From: Rhizophagus irregularis
Taxonomy: Eukaryota; Glomeromycota; Glomeromycetes; Glomerales; Glomeraceae
DNA: 64,000 bases
Assembly (NCBI RefSeq): GCF_026210795.1
Contig: NC_089429.1
Span: 1,736,001-1,800,000, forward strand
Reading direction: 5' to 3'
The notes under the pieces were generated by a model. The model worked only from the letters and a program-made list of their open reading frames with translations, did no database searches and had not been told where the DNA came from. Made by a program: the position numbers and the translations under genes. The stretch's first letter is position 1. Each line of letters begins with the position of its first letter. Below are positions 20,615 to 54,254 of the stretch, one piece after another.

Positions 20615-21780
20615 TGGCAAGCCGAGTTGGACAAAATTATCATTGTGCGATAAAAAATCAAGCATGGCTAGACAAAATGTCACCCCGTGTCTGACATTTT
20701 ACCTGTTTATGCTTGATTTTCATCTGTCCCGTGCTTGATATTTATCTGTACGACTGTACGTCTGTACGTGCTATCTTGATGTTTATCTATCATGTGCTTG
20801 ATGTTTATCTGATGTATTATCTGTATGCTTGGTGCTTGGTATTTTTATCTGTCCGTGTTTGAGTCTGTACTTGATGTTTTTGTCCAACTGTATTTGATTT
20901 TAATTTTATCTTGTCAAAATTGGTTTCTTTGTCAGCACAGGGTGATATTTTGTCAATCACATGTTTTTTAAGTTTAGCATAGTTTTTACATGAAGTATTT
21001 TTTTTCATTTTATTGACTTTTTTTTAATAAAACAATTTTTTTAGAGAATTTTTATTTTTATTATAGGCAAAGGCTTGTTTGATAAAATTCTTTTGGTTAA
21101 TAAAAAGACTTTTTTTGATAAAAAATTTACATTTCTGAGTTTTTTTTTCGATAATTTCGTTAAAAAATTTAAATTTTATTGGAGAATTTTTAATAGGATT
21201 TTTTTTTTTTTGGACATATCTTTTGATAGAGAATTTCGTTAAGAATTTTTTTTTTAATAGGAGGGAATTTTCCTTGATAAAGAATTTCTTTTGGGAATTT
21301 TTTTAATAGGTGAAAGTATTTTTTGACGGAGAATTTATTAGAGAATTTTTTTTTTAATAGGGGGATTATTTTTGATAGAGGATTTATTAAAGAATTTTTC
21401 TTTAATAGGAAGATAAATAATTTCGCTGAGAATTTTTTTTTTTTGATAGGAGGGAAGTTTTTTTTTGATAGAAATTCTTTTGAGAATTTTTTTTAATGGT
21501 AAGAATCTTTGAATTTTTTTTAATAGGGAAAATGTGTTTTTTGATGGAAGATTTTCGTTAGAAATTTTTCTTAATCGGGGATATTTTTTTTGATTGAGAA
21601 TTTCATTAGAGAATTGTTAAGTTTTTTTATTTTTTTGATGGAGAATTTTGTTAGAAGTCTCAATAGAAAATTTTATTGAAAATAGTTTTTTTTTAATAAA
21701 GGTATCGAGAATTTTGGCTTGAAAAATTTTTTTTTTTTTTTTTAATAAAGAATTTCATTAGAGATCTTTTTTTATAAAAT
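20615..21780 (+). repeat. Left terminal inverted repeat, internally repetitive
   Basis: This arm starts TGGCAAGCCGAGTTGG. Several CTTGATRTTTATCTGT units follow to about 20900. From about 21010 it is a degenerate array of 30-45-base cassettes of the type GAGAATTTTTTTTTAATAGG. Its partner is the A-rich arm at about 25690-27015. For example, the GGAGGGAATTTTCCTTGATA segment near 21260 matches the complement near 26235-26255. Confidence 0.6.
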
Positions 21781-25690: not shown

Positions 25691-27015
25691 AAAATTTATT
25701 AAAATTGTAAAATTTAATAAAAAATTTTCCAACAAATTTTTATCAATTTTTTATAAAAAAAAGAACCCTAATGAAATTCTTTATTAAAAAAAAAATTTCG
25801 AACTAAAATTCTCAATACATTTATTAAAAAAAAACTATTTTCAATAAAATTTTCTATTAAGATTACTAAACAAAATTCTCCATCAAAAAAATAAAAATTT
25901 TTCAATAAACAATTCTCTAATGAAATTCTCAATCAAAAAAAAAATATCCCCGATTAAAGAAAAATTTAAAGATTCTTACCATCTTATTAAAAAAAATTCT
26001 CAAAAGGATTTCTATATCAAAAAAAAAATCTCCCCTGTTAAAAAAAAGTTTACACTAACGAAATGATCTATCAAAAAAAAAAAAAAAAAAAAAATCTCAG
26101 CGAAATCTATTAAAGAAAAATTCTTTAATGAAATTCTCTATCAAAAACAATCCCCCATTAAAAAAAATTCTCTAATAAAATTCTCTGTCAAAAAATACTT
26201 TCACCTATTAAAAAAAATTCCCAAAAGAATTCTTTATCAAGGAAAACTCCCTCCTATTAAAAAAAAATTCTTAACGAAATTCCCTATCAAAAAAAAAAAA
26301 TCTCATTTGTTAAAAAAATTTTCTAACGAAATTATCTATCAAAAAAAAACCTTCCCTATTAAAAAAATTCTTCAAATAATTTTTTACAAAAAAAAAAATT
26401 CTCAATTCTCAATCAAAAAAAAAAATTCTCTCCTGGTAAAAAAAATAGTTCCAACAAATTATGTATATGTCAAAAAAAAATCTCATTAAAAAAAAAATTT
26501 CTCCAATAAAATTTCTATCAAATAAAAGTTTTTAACGAAATTATCCATCAAAAAAAAACTCAGAAATGTCCCTATCAATGAAAAAAATTTTCTAACGAAA
26601 TTTTTATAAAAAAAATCTACTTATTAAAAAAATTCACAAAGAAATTCTTTCAAACAAAGCCTTTGCCTATATTAAAAATAAAAATTCTCGACAAAATTTG
26701 TTTATAAAAAAAAAAAAAATATTTTTTAAAACTACGCTAAACTTAAAAACATGTGGCCGACAAAATATCTGTGCTGACAAAGAAACTAATTTTTTGACAA
26801 AGATAAAATTATCGAGTATAGTTGGATTAAATCAAACACGGAAAAAACATCAAGCACAGACGGACAAAAATATCAAGCACAGACGTAAAGCACGGATGGA
26901 TAAAAATGTCAAGCATGGTCGGATAAAACCATCAAGCACGTACAGATAAATATCAAGCACGGACAGATGAATATCAAGCATGAACAGGTAAAATGTCGTC
27001 CAACTCAGCTTGCCA
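25691..27015 (-). repeat. Right terminal inverted repeat, A-rich
   Basis: Complement of the left arm at 20615-21780: cassettes of CCTATTAAAAAAAATTCTC type up to about 26700, then the TGTGCTGACAAAGAAAC block, then ATCAAGCACGGACAGATAAA-type units, ending CAACTCAGCTTGCCA. Confidence 0.6.
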
Positions 27016-30241: not shown

Positions 30242-30245
30242 TTAA

Positions 30246-32723
30246 CTAGAGTAACTTGGTAATTATTAGTGAGTTATAATCATTATACTGTCAGATTGAC
30301 TCGAAAATTTTGGGTCGGGTCATCAAACATTTTTATAATTAAATATAAAAAAAATTGATTTTTTTATTAAAAACGTCAGACTTGACGTTTTCATGATTAA
30401 AAAATCATTTTTTACGTTAGATTTGATTAAAAATCAAAAAAATTGATTTTTTTGGTTAAAAATGTAAGACTTGGCGTTTTTGTAATTAAAAAATCAAAAA
30501 AAAAATGATTTTATTAATTAAAAATGTCAGACTCGACGTTTTTGTAATTAAAAAATCAAAAAAATGTTTTTTTTAGTTAAAAACGTCAGACATGACATTT
30601 TTGTGATTAAAAATAAAAAAAAATGTCAGACTTGACGTTTTTGTAATTAAAAAATCAAAAAAATGACTTTTTTAGTTGAAAAACGTCAGGCTTGACGTTT
30701 TTGTAATTAAAAAATCAAAAAAATGACTTTTTTAGTTGAAAAACGTCAGGCTTGACGTTTTTGTAAATAAAAAATCAAAAAAATGACTTTTTTAGTTGAA
30801 AAACGTCAGGCTTGACGTTTTTGTAATTAAAAAATCAAAAAAATGACTTTTTTAGTTAAAAAATGTCAGGCTTGACGTTTTGGTAATTAAAAAATCAAAA
30901 AAATGACTTTTTTAGTTAAAAAATGTCAGGATCGACGTTTTTGTAATTAAAAAATCAAAAAAAAATGACTTTTTTAGTTAAAAAACGTCAGACTTGACGT
31001 TTTTGTAATTAAAAAATAAAAAAAAATGACTTTTTCAGTTAAAAAGCGTCAGACATGACATTTTTGTGATTAAAAATAAAAAAAAATGATTTTTTTAATC
31101 AAAAACGTCAGGCTTGACGTTTTTGTAATTAAAAAATCAAAAAAATGACTTTTTTAGTTAAAAAACGTCAGACTTGATGTTTTTGTAATTAAAAAATCAA
31201 AAAAATGACTTTTTTAGTTAAAAAACGTCAGACTTGATGTTTTTGTAATTAAAAAATCAAAAAAAAATGATTTTTTTAGTTAAAAACGTCAGACATGACA
31301 TTTTTGTGATTAAAAATAAAAAAAATGATTTTTTAATTAAAAACGTCAGATTTGACATTTTTATGATTCAAAAAATCATTTTTTATGTTAGATTTGACAA
31401 TTTTGTAATTAAAAATCAAAAAAATTGATTTTTTTAGTTAAAAACGTCAGACTTGACGTTTTTGTAATTAAAAAATCAAAAAAAATGATTTTTTAATTAA
31501 AAACGTCAGACTTGATGTTTTTGTGATTAAAAATCAAAAAAATATTGGTTTTTTTTAATTAAAAATGTCAGACTTGATGTTTTTGTGATTAAAAATCAAA
31601 AAAAATATTGATTTTTTAATTAAAAACGTCAGACTTGGCATTTTGTAATTAAAAATCAAAAAAATATTGGTTTTTTTAATTAAAAACGTCAGACTTGACG
31701 TTTTTGTAATTAAAAAATCAAAAAAAATGATTTTTTTGATTAAAAATGTCAGACTTGATGTTTTTGTAATTAAAAAATCAAAAAAAATGATTTTTTTGAT
31801 TAAAAACGTTAGACTTGACGTTATTGTAATTAAAAAATCAAAAAAAATGATTTTTTTGATTAAAAACGTCAGACTTGACGTTTTTGTTATTAAAAAATCA
31901 AAAAAATGATTTTTTTAATTAAAAAACGTCAGACTTGACATTTTTGTGATTAAAAAATAAAAATCAAAAAAATATTGGTTTTTTTTTAATTAAAAACGTC
32001 AGACTTGACGTTTTTGTTATTAAAAAATCAAAAAAAAATGATTTTTTTAATTAAAAACGTCAGACTTTGACATTTTTGTGATTAAAAATCAAAAAAATAT
32101 TGGTTTTTTTAATTAAAAACGTCAGTCTTGACATTTTTTGTTAAAAAAATAAAAAATAAAGAAAAAACGTTTTTGCGTTATTTTTTTTATAATTTTATAT
32201 GGAAAAATGCCAAAACGTTTTTTTCTTAATAGTAATGCAAAAAAAAAAGTTTTTGGCATTTTTTTTAATAATATTATATGAAAAAACGCTGAAACGTTTT
32301 TGTTACAATTTTTTTATTTTTTTGCAATATTTTATGAAATTTTAATGATCAACAAAAAAATGAAATTATGCAAATATTGAATGATGCAACAATTTAACAG
32401 GGACTTTTAGTGGCACAGGAAGAGTTTTTGCGAAAAGTTGGCATTAGAAGTTTTTTTCATTGTCATTGTCATTGTCATTTACATAAAGTTATATAAGATT
32501 AATCTGAGAGTTTTTTACCAAAAAGGAAATTTTTTTATAAAAAGGGAAATGATTTTCAATTTCGAGGCAATTCAGCAGGTGTTTTAATAACAAATTGAGA
32601 AATGATTTCCATAGAAAATCTCGTGACAAAATTTATAATAAATTTAAAATAAATGATCAACAAATGATCAACAAAATCGTTACTAGTTTTATAAAAAACG
32701 CCCAATAATATCTTTTTATTGTT
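30246..32723 (+). mobile_element. TTAA-flanked satellite-bearing element, copy 1
   Basis: It begins CTAGAGTAACTTGG and ends TTTTTATTGTT, with TTAA on each side (30242-30245 and 32724-32727). The layout is a unique head of about 90 bases, a tandem array at about 30335-32150, and a unique tail of about 570 bases. The tail has AAACGTTTT-rich sequence and a short ATTGTC hexamer repeat at 32458-32490. A second copy lies in reverse orientation at 50991-54243. There are no matching terminal inverted repeats and no real reading frame. Short apparent proteins such as the one at 31667-31909 are only translations of the array. Shared ends in two places show that it moves or was copied as a unit. Confidence 0.7.
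30335..32150 (+). repeat. Tandem array of about 60-bp alternating palindromes
   Basis: About 30 units, each made of two back-to-back inverted repeats. One is AAAAACGTCA-GACT-TGACGTTTTT with ten-base arms. The other is an AATTAAAAAATCA ... TGATTTTTTAATT type. Unit length varies from about 52 to 66 bases. At 30660-30960 several units are nearly identical at 60 bases. The CG dinucleotides of the first palindrome are often replaced by TG or CA. Confidence 0.8.
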
Positions 32724-32727
32724 TTAA

Positions 32728-49322: not shown

Positions 49323-50954
49323 TCATAAGAATTCATAACCAATATAATCCGTTTTTATATTTTCACCGTCACCAATACATAAATCATCATAATCTTTAAC
49401 GTGAATACCATAAAATTTAAATTCTTTCACTACATTCTTATAATCAAACAAATCTCTCTTTTCACGTCTTTTGTAAAGATCTTTCATAGCTAAATATTCG
49501 ATCCTTTTTTCTTTCATAATGTATTTCTTAATATGAAGTAAAATATCTTCACTTTCAAAAGTATCATACGAATTTGCTGGATTTCCGATTAATAATTTCT
49601 TAATAAAAATATTTTGTAATTTTTTAAATAATACTTTCGAACCTTTTGCACTAAAATTATGTTCCAATTTTAAATATTCTAACCTACGAGGAAGAATTTG
49701 TTCTAAATTTTCTAACATAATTGATTCAAGTTTACGATTAGGTCGGATTAAATAAATAGAAAGGTAATTAAGATTTTGTTGAACATTCTTAATTAAATCA
49801 AGTGCCAAATAAATATATTTATCATTTTTAAATAATATATCTAAAAATTTGATCTTGTCACAATAAATTTCCAATAGTTTATATAATTGTAGCATATATT
49901 CACTATTATATAACTTAATTGTAATATTTTCTAAGTAATTACCCGACTTTTGTAATAATAACTTTAATGATTCAATTTGTAATTTAGAACGTTCATCTAT
50001 AAATAAAGATTTTAACTTAAACGGTTTAGTCAGATTAATAATTTGTTGAAAAAAAGTAGAATCTAAAGAACTACAATAAAGAATATGAATAGATTCCAAA
50101 ACATTTAGTTGTTCAAAATTAACTTTCAAACTATTTAATTGAATACAATGAAATGTAATTGTTTTTAAGGTATTTGAATAATTAGTAACATTTAAATTTA
50201 AATTACTATTAAAAGAATAAATTTTTCTGAGATTTTGTTGTGAATTAATCAATTTGAATAGACAATCTTTTTCAATGTAATTATATGATAAAGAATGAAC
50301 ATAAACTGATGAAATTGAAGTGCAATTAGAGTAAAAATATTTTATAAATGATGATAAATAGCTATCTTTTTGATAACTTAAACGAATACTTAAATTTTTA
50401 ACATTACAAATGAATTTTGGATTTTGTAGGATTAACTGAAGGGCTGTATTAAAGTAATCATCATAACACTGAATTATAAGATTAGAGATTTCGAGTTCAA
50501 AAGTATGTAAATTAACTTCATTTTCAATAAATATTTTGACTAATAATGAGAAAATAAAATTTCGCAATATAACATCAGTTACATCACATAAAAAATTTTT
50601 AATAGCCCAGGATTCAATAGAATTATAAACTTTAGGTATAGATAAACATTTAATAAAACTAGGATAATTAAATAATGTATTTGAAAGAAACGATGAACCA
50701 GTAAAAAATCGATATTCATTTAATTTTATTTTATCACCATCATTTAATTTGTGTAAGCAAATATTAATAAAATGATAATTTTTAGGATATTCCTTTGAGA
50801 ACGGGTCCTCCCACAATAATGGAATTGCCAAACGACACCATAATCTATTAACTAAAATACATGAATGTAATGTCGAAAAGTCATTTCGAAAGTATTGTAC
50901 AATTTCATATGTTAATTCAGGTAGATTTCCTGAAAATATTTTTGAACATGTCAT
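49323..50954 (-). CDS. F-box/LRR-like protein (543 aa), tandem copy A
   Basis: Intact single-exon member of the MACSK family, here starting MTCSKIFSGNLPELTYEI. The F-box core FSTLHSCILVNRLWCRLAIP is conserved. Leucine-rich segments follow (FEQLNVLESIHILYC, FKLKSLFIDERSKLQI, LEYLKLEHNF), with a C-terminal block KKYIMKEKRIEYLAM. It is closest to the protein at 59028-60620: both have FRNDFS in the F-box, and the flanks are homologous. Only about 36 bases of its native 5' flank remain before the satellite-bearing element at 50991. The homologous distal promoter lies beyond that element at 54255. Expression may therefore be altered. Role inferred: SCF substrate receptor. Confidence 0.9.
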   Translation of the reverse strand: MTCSKIFSGNLPELTYEIVQYFRNDFSTLHSCILVNRLWCRLAIPLLWEDPFSKEYPKNYHFINICLHKLNDGDKIKLNEYRFFTGSSFLSNTLFNYPSFIKCLSIPKVYNSIESWAIKNFLCDVTDVILRNFIFSLLVKIFIENEVNLHTFELEISNLIIQCYDDYFNTALQLILQNPKFICNVKNLSIRLSYQKDSYLSSFIKYFYSNCTSISSVYVHSLSYNYIEKDCLFKLINSQQNLRKIYSFNSNLNLNVTNYSNTLKTITFHCIQLNSLKVNFEQLNVLESIHILYCSSLDSTFFQQIINLTKPFKLKSLFIDERSKLQIESLKLLLQKSGNYLENITIKLYNSEYMLQLYKLLEIYCDKIKFLDILFKNDKYIYLALDLIKNVQQNLNYLSIYLIRPNRKLESIMLENLEQILPRRLEYLKLEHNFSAKGSKVLFKKLQNIFIKKLLIGNPANSYDTFESEDILLHIKKYIMKEKRIEYLAMKDLYKRREKRDLFDYKNVVKEFKFYGIHVKDYDDLCIGDGENIKTDYIGYEFL

Positions 50955-51237
50955 AGTGAAAAAGAGGAGTGTTATGTTTTAAAATTTTAAAACAATAAAA
51001 AGATATTATTGGGCGTTTTTTATAAAACTAGTAACGATTTTGTTGATCATTTTTGTTGATCATTTATTTTAAATTTATTATAAATTTTGTCACGAGATTT
51101 TCTATGGAAATCATTTCTCAATTTGTTATTAAAACACCTGCTGAATTGCCTCGAAATTGAAAATCATTTCCCTTTTTATAAAAAAATTTCCTTTTTGGTA
51201 AAAAACTCTCAGATTAATCTTATATAACTTTATGTAA

Positions 51238-51335
51238 ATGTCAATGACAATGTCAATGTCAGTGACAATGTCAATGTCAGTGACAATGTCAATGTCAATG
51301 TCAATGTCAATGTCAATGTCAATGACAATGACAAT
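51238..51335 (-). repeat. Hexamer microsatellite (TGTCAA)n
   Basis: About 16 copies of AATGTC / AATGAC / AGTGAC hexamers. The corresponding place in the other element copy (32458-32490) has only about five. The alternating Ile-Asp peptide it encodes is an artefact. Confidence 0.8.
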
Positions 51336-51659
51336 GAAAAAAACTTCTAATGCCAACTTTTCGCAAAAACTCTTCCTGTGCCACTAAAAGTCCCTGTTAA
51401 ATTGTTGCATCATTCAATATTTACATAATTTCATTTTTTTGTTGATCATTAAAATTTCATAAAATATTGCAAAAAAATAAAAAAATTGTAAAAAAAATGT
51501 TTCAGTGTTTTTTCATATAATATTATTAAAAAAAATGCCAAAAACTTTTTTTTTGCATTACTATTAAGAAAAAAACGTTTTGGCATTTTTCCATATAAAA
51601 TTATAAAAAAAATAACACAAAAACGTTTTTTCTTCATTTTTGATTTTTTTAACAAAAAA

Positions 51660-54150
51660 TGTCAAGACTGACGTTTTTAATTAAAAAAACCAATATTTTT
51701 TTGATTTTTAATCACAAAAATGTCAAAGTCTGACGTTTTTAATTAAAAAAATCATTTTTTTTTGATTTTTTAATAACAAAAACGTCAAGTCTGACATTTT
51801 TAATTAAAAAAAACCAATATTTTTTTGATTTTTATTTTTAATCACAAAAATGTCAAGTCTGACGTTTTTTAATTGAAAAAATCATTTTTTTGATTTTTTA
51901 ATAACAAAAATGTCAAGTCTGACGTTTTTAATCAAAAAAATCATTTTTTTTTGATTTTTTAATTACAATAATGTCAAGTCTAACGTTTTTAATCAAAAAA
52001 ATCATTTTTTTTGATTTTTTAATTACAAAAACATCAAGTCTGACATTTTTAATCAAAAAAATCATTTTTTTTGATTTTTTAATTACAAAAACATCAAGTC
52101 TGACATTTTTAATCAAAAAAATCATTTTTTTTGATTTTTTAATTACAAAAACGTCAAGTCTGACATTTTTAATTAAAAAAAACAATATTTTTTTGATTTT
52201 TAATTACAAAATGCCAAGTCTGACGTTTTTAATTAAAAAAACCAATATTTTTTTGATTTTTAATCACAAAAATGTCAAAGTCTGACGTTTTTAATTAAAA
52301 AAATCATTTTTTTTGATTTTTTAATAACAAAAACGCCAAGTCTGACGTTTTTAATTAAAAAAAACCAATATTTTTTTGATTTTTATTTTTTAATCACAAA
52401 AATGTCAAGTCTGACGTTTTTTAATTAAAAAAATCATTTTTTTTGATTTTTTAATAACAAAAATGTCAAGTCTGACGTTTTTATCAAAAAAATCATTTTT
52501 TTTTGATTTTTTAATTACAATAATGTCAAGTCTAACGTTTTTAATCAAAAAAATCATTTTTTTTGATTTTTTAATTACAAAAACATCAAGTCTGACATTT
52601 TTAATCAAAAAAATCATTTTTTTTGATTTTTTAATTACAAAAACGTCAAGTCTGACATTTTTAATTAAAAAAAACAATATTTTTTTGATTTTTAATTACA
52701 AAATGCCAAGTCTGACGTTTTTAATTAAAAAATCAATATTTTTTTTGATTTTTAATCACAAAAACATCAAGTCTGACATTTTTAATTAAAAAAAACCAAT
52801 ATTTTTTTTGATTTTTAATCACAAAAACGTCAAGTCTGACGTTTTTAATTAAAAAAATCATTTTTTTGATTTTTTAATTACAAAAACGTCGAGTCTGACA
52901 TTTTTAATTAAAAAATCATTTTTTTTTGATTTTTTAATTACAAAAACGTCAAGTCTGACGTTTTTAACTAAAAAAAATCAATTTTTTTGATTTTTAATTA
53001 CAAAATTGTCAAATCTAACATAAAAAATAATTTTTTGAATCATAAAAATGTCAAATCTGACGTTTTTAATTAAAAAATCATTTTTTTTTATTTTTAATCA
53101 CAAAAATGTCATGTCTGACGTTTTTAACTAAAAAAATCATTTTTTTTTTGATTTTTTAATTAAAAAACGTCAAGTCTGACGTTTTTTAACTAAAAAAATC
53201 ATTTTTTTTTTGATTTTTTAATTAAAAAACGTCAAGTCTGACGTTTTTTAACTAAAAAAGTCATTTTTTGATTTTTTAATTACAAAAATGTCAAATCTGA
53301 CGTTTTTAATTAAAAAAAATCATTTTTTTTATTTTTAATCACAAAAATGTCATGTCTGACGTTTTTTAACTAAAAAAGTCATTTTTTTTTGATTTTTTAA
53401 TTACAAAAATGTCAAGTCTGACATTTTTTAACTGAAAAAGTCATTTTTTTTGACTTTTTAATTACAAAAACGTCAAGTCTGACGTTTTTTAACTGAAAAA
53501 GTCATTTTTTTGATTTTTTAATTACAATAACGTCAAGCCTGACATTTTTTAACTAAAAAAGTCATTTTTTTGATTTTTTAATTACAAAAACGTCAAGCCT
53601 GACATTTTTTAACTAAAAAAGTCATTTTTTTGATTTTTTAATTACAAAAACGTCAAGCCTGACGTTTTTCAACTAAAAAAGTCATTTTTTTGATTTTTTA
53701 ATTACAAAAACGTCAAGCCTGACGTTTTTCAACTAAAAAAGTCATTTTTTTGATTTTTTAATTACAAAAACGTCAAGCCTGACGTTTTTCAACTAAAAAA
53801 GTCATTTTTTTGATTTTTTAATTACAAAAACGTCAAGTCTGACATTTTTTAACTAAAAAAATCATTTTTTTTTATTTTTAATCACAAAAATGTCATGTCT
53901 GACGTTTTTAACTAAAAAAAACATTTTTTTTATTTTTTAATTACAAAAACGTCGAGTCTGACATTTTTAATTAATAAAATCATTTTTTTTTGATTTTTTA
54001 ATTACAAAAACGCCAAGTCTTACGTTTTTAACCAAAAAAATCAACTTTTTTTGATTTTTAATCAAATCTAACGTAAAAAATGATTTTTTAATCATAAAAA
54101 CGTCAAGTCTGACGTTTTTAATAAAAAAATCAATTTTTTTTATATTTAAT
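51660..54150 (-). repeat. Tandem array of alternating palindromes, expanded
   Basis: Around 40 units of the same two-palindrome design as 30335-32150, on the opposite strand. Units at 53580-53820 are nearly identical 60-mers, whereas the outer ones are diverged. This is typical of an array growing by unequal exchange or replication slippage in its middle. Confidence 0.8.
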
Positions 54151-54254
54151 TATAAAAACGTTTGATGACCCGACCCAAAATTTTCGAGTCAATCTGACAG
54201 TATAATGATTATAACTCACTAATAATTACCAAGTTACTCTAGTTTAAACAAGAA

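Follow-up and report, generated by a model that had tools for sequence, protein, structure and literature searches.

A satellite-carrying element of Rhizophagus irregularis with features of a non-autonomous, TT-inserting Helitron and a probable Rep-Helicase partner

Canonical Helitrons (Helitron1) are marked by a 5′ TC, a 3′ CTRR and insertion between A and T. Insertion at TT is a trait of Helentrons, whose gene-bearing partners encode an AP endonuclease domain in the Rep-Helicase (Rep-Hel) protein. The non-autonomous Helentrons known as HINE or DINE-1, including Cg_HINE of the Pacific oyster, are described in the available portions of two reports as having a 5′ module, a microsatellite, a satellite-like array and a hairpin-bearing 3′ module, and as inserting at TT with no long target duplication (PMC4067079, PMC7492417). 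By the authors' account in the available text, no partner could be assigned to the oyster elements (PMC7492417). Helitron2, as described in the accessible parts of work on Chlamydomonas and on FoHeli of Fusarium oxysporum, has a Rep-Hel protein in which no endonuclease was found, small hairpins at the ends and a T-rich target, with contexts of TTTT|T/C or TNAT|T (PMC3627910, PMC5148889). Circular intermediates in which the ends are joined have been reported for a Fusarium Helitron (PMC5148889). Repeats reported as unclassified make up 32% of the Rhizophagus genome (PMC8647823, available portion), and Helitrons are mentioned in the available portions of two Rhizophagus transposon papers, where a family like the present one is not among them (PMC8647823, PMC11075540). 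Likewise, the titles and abstract openings of open-licence literature on Rhizophagus satellite DNA, fungal palindromic Helitron arrays and LINEs targeting Helitron microsatellites held nothing alike.

The element described here occurs twice, in opposite orientations, in a 64,000-nucleotide window of R. irregularis DNA, which lies on contig C1 of the 146.7-Mb, 32-contig assembly that was examined. It is very probably a non-autonomous, TT-inserting Helitron, similar to Helentrons and Helitron2 and with its parts arranged as in HINE, in which Rep-Hel ends surround a palindromic 60-bp satellite. This reading is favored because the copies have exact common borders, a TT at the site, an empty site, the ends of a Rep-Hel element and near-identical sequences. 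The preliminary description of the locus, made from its letters alone, knew of no described transposon class with this design, but Helentron-type HINE/DINE-1 elements with a central satellite array have been described, at least in the portions of the reports available (PMC4067079, PMC7492417), and the satellite-carrying design is thus already known from animals. Here, however, the same genome also contains a probable gene-bearing partner, and retrotransposons occupy one fixed spot in some copies. The parts of the element are collected in Table 1.

Table 1. Features of the element in the window and sites of LINE insertion (positions are those of the window unless a locus is named; copy 1 reads 5′ to 3′ on the minus strand).
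Feature	Position	Strand	Remarks
Copy 1, very probably a non-autonomous Helitron, 2,480 bp	30246..32725	−	Borders from 30 left and 28 distinct right ends
Target dinucleotide TT, 3′ side (plus strand: AA)	30244..30245	−	TT in 30/30 copies
TT on 5′ side: either the target TT repeated or T's belonging to the element	32726..32727	−	TTAA-AACAAT in 27/28 distinct 5′ ends; empty site has one TT
3′ terminal 35 bp, last bases CTAG, common to Rep-Hel elements	30246..30280	−	88.6% over 35 bp to C17 and C6
Small subterminal hairpin with arms of 6 bp, 29 nt from 3′ end	30275..30287	−	
Satellite array, ~29 units of ~60 bp	30366..32145	−	Per unit: CG-containing palindrome and A/T palindrome
Block with a long imperfect hairpin, array on one side and 5′ module on the other	32160..32300	−	DNA fold −31.6 kcal/mol, z = −5.4, 0/200 shuffles as good
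5′ module common to Rep-Hel elements	32346..32727	−	83–98% to C17/C6/C14, 90% to L067, with gaps
Hexamer microsatellite, CATTGT on plus strand; LINE site in long copies	32458..32479	−	
5′ terminal hairpin CAATAA-7 nt-TTATTG	32703..32721	−	Identical in C17 Rep-Hel element
Copy 2, 3,254 bp, ~40 units, orientation opposite to copy 1	50989..54242	+	
LINE sites	32458-32479, 51232-51336 (window); L060, L054, L035, L032, L010, L069-L076		Hexamer array of copy 2 (51232-51336) longer than that of copy 1

The two sharply bordered copies reported in the preliminary description were both recovered. For copy 1, its left border was exact, with CTAG starting at 30246, while the right border lies two to four bases beyond the 32723 given there, at 32725 with an AA pair at 32726-32727. 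The termini are CTAG at the 3′ end and TTAAAACAAT at the other. Copy 1 has no gene, its longest listed ORF being 80 aa with a TTG start, and it lacks conventional terminal inverted repeats, both as originally claimed. The longest exact inverted matches between the ends were 6–7 bp, which 74–77% of shuffles reached, and comparison with shuffles likewise revealed no asymmetric terminal or subterminal inverted repeats above chance in the element. Hairpins are present at both ends, although on folding the stability of the 75-nt 3′ end and the 67-nt 5′ end did not exceed that of shuffles.

Read on the minus strand, all 30 left ends examined (of 40 listed) consist of GTTACTCTAG, then TT, then variable sequence, so that CTAG|TT occurs in every copy examined. 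At the 5′ end 29 rows were read, 28 of them distinct (L017 and L041 are one copy) and four (L064–L067) from elements with a partner-type 3′ end; in each, variable sequence is followed by TTAA-AACAATAAAAAGAT, except in L042, which deviates by a few bases. Since TTAA is nearly constant there, it is mostly part of the element. An empty site is supplied by C2:5279556-5281150, a copy that lies inside the array of another one. When its flanks are joined with a single TT, they agree with uninterrupted arrays in 135 of 136 positions, whereas a second TT gives rise to two gap positions. The single TT in the empty site indicates that the element enters at TT: judging from these junctions, either the TT would be duplicated, or the element would go in between the two T's and carry one T on either side, or it would go in ahead of the TT and bring its own TT. 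Apart from the target dinucleotide, nothing is duplicated at the site of this one nested copy. None of 12 other joined flanks yielded a further empty site among the loci examined.

A search of the genome for Helitron_like_N gave 90 matches, one subgroup of which has the ends of the window element. At C17, C6 and C14, Rep is found ~11 kb downstream of the right-end module, the coding strand has the expected direction, and the elements span 14.6, 14.5 and 14.7 kb, respectively, from the 5′ end to CTAG. As far as ...ACCCTAG the C17 element is 99.7% identical to that at C6, and the likeness is lost shortly thereafter; their last 35 bp match the end of the window element at 88.6%, and the 5′ modules of all three match that of the window element over ~385 bp at 83–98%, with gaps. 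A different small hairpin sits in the Rep-Hel element at the same distance from the 3′ end as the one in copy 1. Across up to 230 bp of the 5′ module, L064–L067, which comprise three Rep-Hel elements and one short relative, are on average 98.4% identical to 24 right-end loci (range 97.8–98.7%). The open frame is 1,370 aa at C6 and shorter at C17 (863 aa) and C14 (871 aa). In the 1,239 of 1,370 aa of the C6 frame that were analysed, Pfam found PF14214 Helitron_like_N (2e-16) and PF05970 PIF1 (1.8e-26), i.e. the Rep and PIF1-like helicase in one protein that mark the Helitron superfamily, and no AP endonuclease domain; these 1,239 aa match the solved Helraiser transposase over the helicase only. 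Judged by its ends and its coding capacity, the Rep-Hel element with the open 1,370-aa frame is probably the partner of the gene-less element, which appears to keep the 5′ module and 3′ terminus of this ~14.6-kb element with the palindromic 60-bp satellite between them. The Rep-Hel protein would nick at the element ends and, as the ends and the family suggest, copy the element into TT by rolling-circle transfer, and each transposition would disperse a ready-made satellite array.

The partner-type 3′ end gave 36 matches, 34 of them nearly full-length. Since this is more than the number of Rep-Hel copies observed, additional short relatives like L067 at C20 (4.9 kb) are likely. The array of the window element was absent from the C17 Rep-Hel stretches examined. 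At C12, an array-type left end lies 4.3 kb beyond the helicase frame of a Rep-Hel copy, in the expected orientation and with a diverged array (80–86%), and this copy could be a Rep-Hel element that itself carries the array; it was left uncounted, there being no match to the 5′ module of the element in the 10 kb examined (L059). The C17 Rep-Hel element (L061 2265-3236 and 3856-4221) has a ~185-bp tandem array of its own in the 5′ region, matched in L067, and also an ORF with a Myb/SANT-like domain.

The subclass of the element is mixed: a CTRR-like 3′ CTAG is combined with a TT target, no endonuclease was found in the analysed C6 frame and inverted repeats do not exceed chance. TT insertion, and a microsatellite and central tandem repeats between end modules, are Helentron and HINE traits; unlike HINE/DINE-1, the element ends in CTAG, shows no subterminal inverted repeats above chance, is associated with a partner in which an endonuclease was not found, and lives in a fungal host. 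It resembles Helitron2 in a T-rich target, in a Rep-Hel protein with no endonuclease detected and, their stability relative to shuffles aside, in small terminal hairpins. It differs from Helitron2, as far as the available text describes that group, in its target context and in asymmetric terminal inverted repeats that do not exceed those of shuffles. With canonical Helitrons it shares a Rep-Hel partner, a subterminal 3′ hairpin and a CTAG, present in 30 of 30 copies, that fits CTRR followed by T. These likenesses, together with the partner lacking a detected endonuclease, could be taken to mean that the element is a Helitron1 derivative and not a relative of Helentrons or Helitron2, and, if its start is placed at TTAAAAC, the preceding base is indeed A in 17 of 29 rows. 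We consider this derivation unlikely: the element begins with TTAA-AACAAT in 27 of 28 distinct 5′ ends and not with TC, the base before TTAA varies (T in seven and G in five of the 29 rows; G in the nested copy), so that A|T is not the rule, TT is constant, and the microsatellite and central array are HINE-like.

The array itself was confirmed by Tandem Repeats Finder, which returned a period of ~60 at 30429-32160 and 51637-54059. As the preliminary description had it, the core of the unit is a AAAAACGTCA-GACT-TGACGTTTTT palindrome plus an A/T palindrome, both more or less perfect. Non-overlapping perfect palindromes with arms of at least 8 and loops of up to 8 numbered 22 in positions 121-1900 of copy 1 (el1), the CG type accounting for 10; 50 dinucleotide shuffles averaged 4.9 and reached at most 12. 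For arms of at least 10 the count was 13, compared with an average of 0.8 and no more than 3 in the shuffles (n=50). A single unit folded as DNA gave z = −3.7, in agreement with the hairpin potential originally proposed. The bZIP/CREB-type half-sites, said to occur dozens of times, are present in the element (ACGTCA 20 times, TGACGT 13 times), but motif counts found the full CRE, TGACGTCA, nowhere in it, and the reading of the array as a set of CRE/bZIP sites was rejected.

The excess of palindromes over shuffles, the presence of 2–23 unit motifs within ~1.6 kb at all 18 left-end loci scored (12 loci on the other strand were left out) and the recurrence of the array in a second Helitron-like family (below) are what one might expect if the array worked for the transposon, with its hairpin chain serving as origin, terminator or decoy (in small-RNA silencing, for instance) and its palindromes under selection. 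Such a function is nonetheless quite unlikely. Array length varies widely, with paired copies from 1.57 kb, and the array is missing from the C17 Rep-Hel stretches examined. Moreover, changes in the CG-palindrome stems are not compensatory: among 608 stems, taken from related copies and some overlapping loci, the pairs were C-G 310, C-A 208, T-G 76 and T-A 14, the T-A double change being rarer than the ~33 expected under independence, and selection on the stems was rejected on these counts. Most likely the array is a passenger that grows and shrinks through multi-unit duplication or slippage, a process that the inverted symmetry of the unit may help. As a passenger, its inverted symmetry would be a property of the satellite, not of a conserved folded product.

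A genome-wide search for the element's ends, which the preliminary description had proposed, returned at least 40 copies of each. For the left 120 bp there were at least 40 matches over 119–120 bases at 98–100%, plus one partial (40 of 50 candidates scored), and for the right 195 bp at least 40 at 98–100% (40 of 88 candidates scored). Of the 40 left ends listed, 30 can be matched to a right end, also listed, that has their orientation; ten left and ten right ends stay unpaired among those listed. The pairs span 1.57–5.6 kb in 24 cases, the 5.6-kb pair containing a nested copy, and 10.2–11.4 kb in five; the single 27-kb pair may contain further inserts or have come about by chance. The 5′ modules of 24 loci averaged 99.4% identity over 276 pairwise comparisons (lowest 98.3%), and because of this near-identity the transposon was apparently active recently.

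Differing borders, or a longer duplication, would have spoken against a discrete element. The borders proved common to the copies examined, L042 excepted, and the flanks differ between copies, apart from an identical 18-bp flank at L037 and L053. Some copies may therefore have been duplicated together with their flanks, but that the satellite merely resides in a segmental duplication is highly improbable and was ruled out by the exact borders and the otherwise differing flanks. The TTAA on both sides of copy 1, first raised as a possible target or its duplication, could also suggest a TTAA-specific, piggyBac-like cut-and-paste element, a reading whose likelihood is negligible and which the flanks ruled out, given that TTAA stands beside CTAG in 7 of 30 copies (by chance in copy 1), the filled and empty sites differ by two target bases only (one empty site) and the ends belong to a Rep-Hel element.

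Returning to the Helitron, all five of its 10–11 kb copies carry an insert at the hexamer microsatellite, (CATTGN)n, at el1 ~2209-2239 (L032, L035, L045, L054, L060). These long copies had been considered as partners, but the two that were partly read held no Rep-Hel: the C5 copy contains a LINE and the C19 copy another insert. One LINE family accounts for four of the five (RVT_1 was read in the C5 copy), while the C19 insert is a different, poly-T-ended one at the same spot (L058), with a 503-aa ORF that has no Pfam match. Twelve genomic 3′ ends of the LINE were found at up to two mismatches, and eight of them lie at the hexamer of the element, seven judged by context and C19:3577323 by its junction alone. 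Of the others, two are located next to a related module, at a CATGTT/CATGTA hexamer, one is at a short TTAATG repeat and one has no hexamer. The LINE bodies are 93.6–96.0% alike and the adjoining Helitron modules 99.6–100% (modules from three of the four copies); the lower identity of the bodies favors independent insertions over one insertion carried along. The LINE thus apparently targets the hexamer microsatellite of the element by independent insertion, and such a seeming preference of a LINE for a single microsatellite within a DNA transposon is noteworthy in its own right.

The satellite is also found elsewhere. A search with the array unit gave at least 666 matches (40 of 198 candidates scored), and nine loci among the matches listed lie outside left/right end pairs, among them C4:522k, which is 4 kb away from a left end in the list but on the opposite strand. 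The four examined (L077–L080) have another 5′ border in common, which reads TTAACACCCAAGTAGG in three of them and TTTTCACCCAAGTAGG in the fourth, and their flanks differ. A 47-bp stretch in three of the four matches the 5′ module of the window element at 91–94%, and in L077 it is followed by a TGTACA hexamer repeat. Behind the 5′ part of all four comes the 60-bp satellite of the window element, flipped relative to the 5′ side. We infer that these loci represent a second Helitron-like family, the 3′ ends of which lie beyond the stretches examined. It is conceivable, if rather doubtful, that the palindromic satellite is a mobile cassette passed between Helitron families, here found in either orientation beside related 5′ modules with hexamer microsatellites, its hairpins perhaps resembling end signals and so favoring capture, and that the adjoining microsatellite serves as the landing site of a target-specific LINE, making a three-layer nest.

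With the carrier and a probable partner in one genome, it becomes possible to test where the array came from, how TT is targeted and how satellites are dispersed. The family itself may account for a little of the unclassified repeats of Rhizophagus, given as 32% of the genome in the available part of the source (PMC8647823).

Two further observations concern the surroundings of the element in the window. The 5′ border of copy 2 and the start of an ORF on the minus strand (49323-50954), which we take to be F-box-like, are ~30 bp apart, which places copy 2 at the expected position of the promoter of this ORF. Finally, ~49-bp tandem arrays occur at 21182-21615 and 26106-26371, ~5 kb apart, and their units look like mutual reverse complements.
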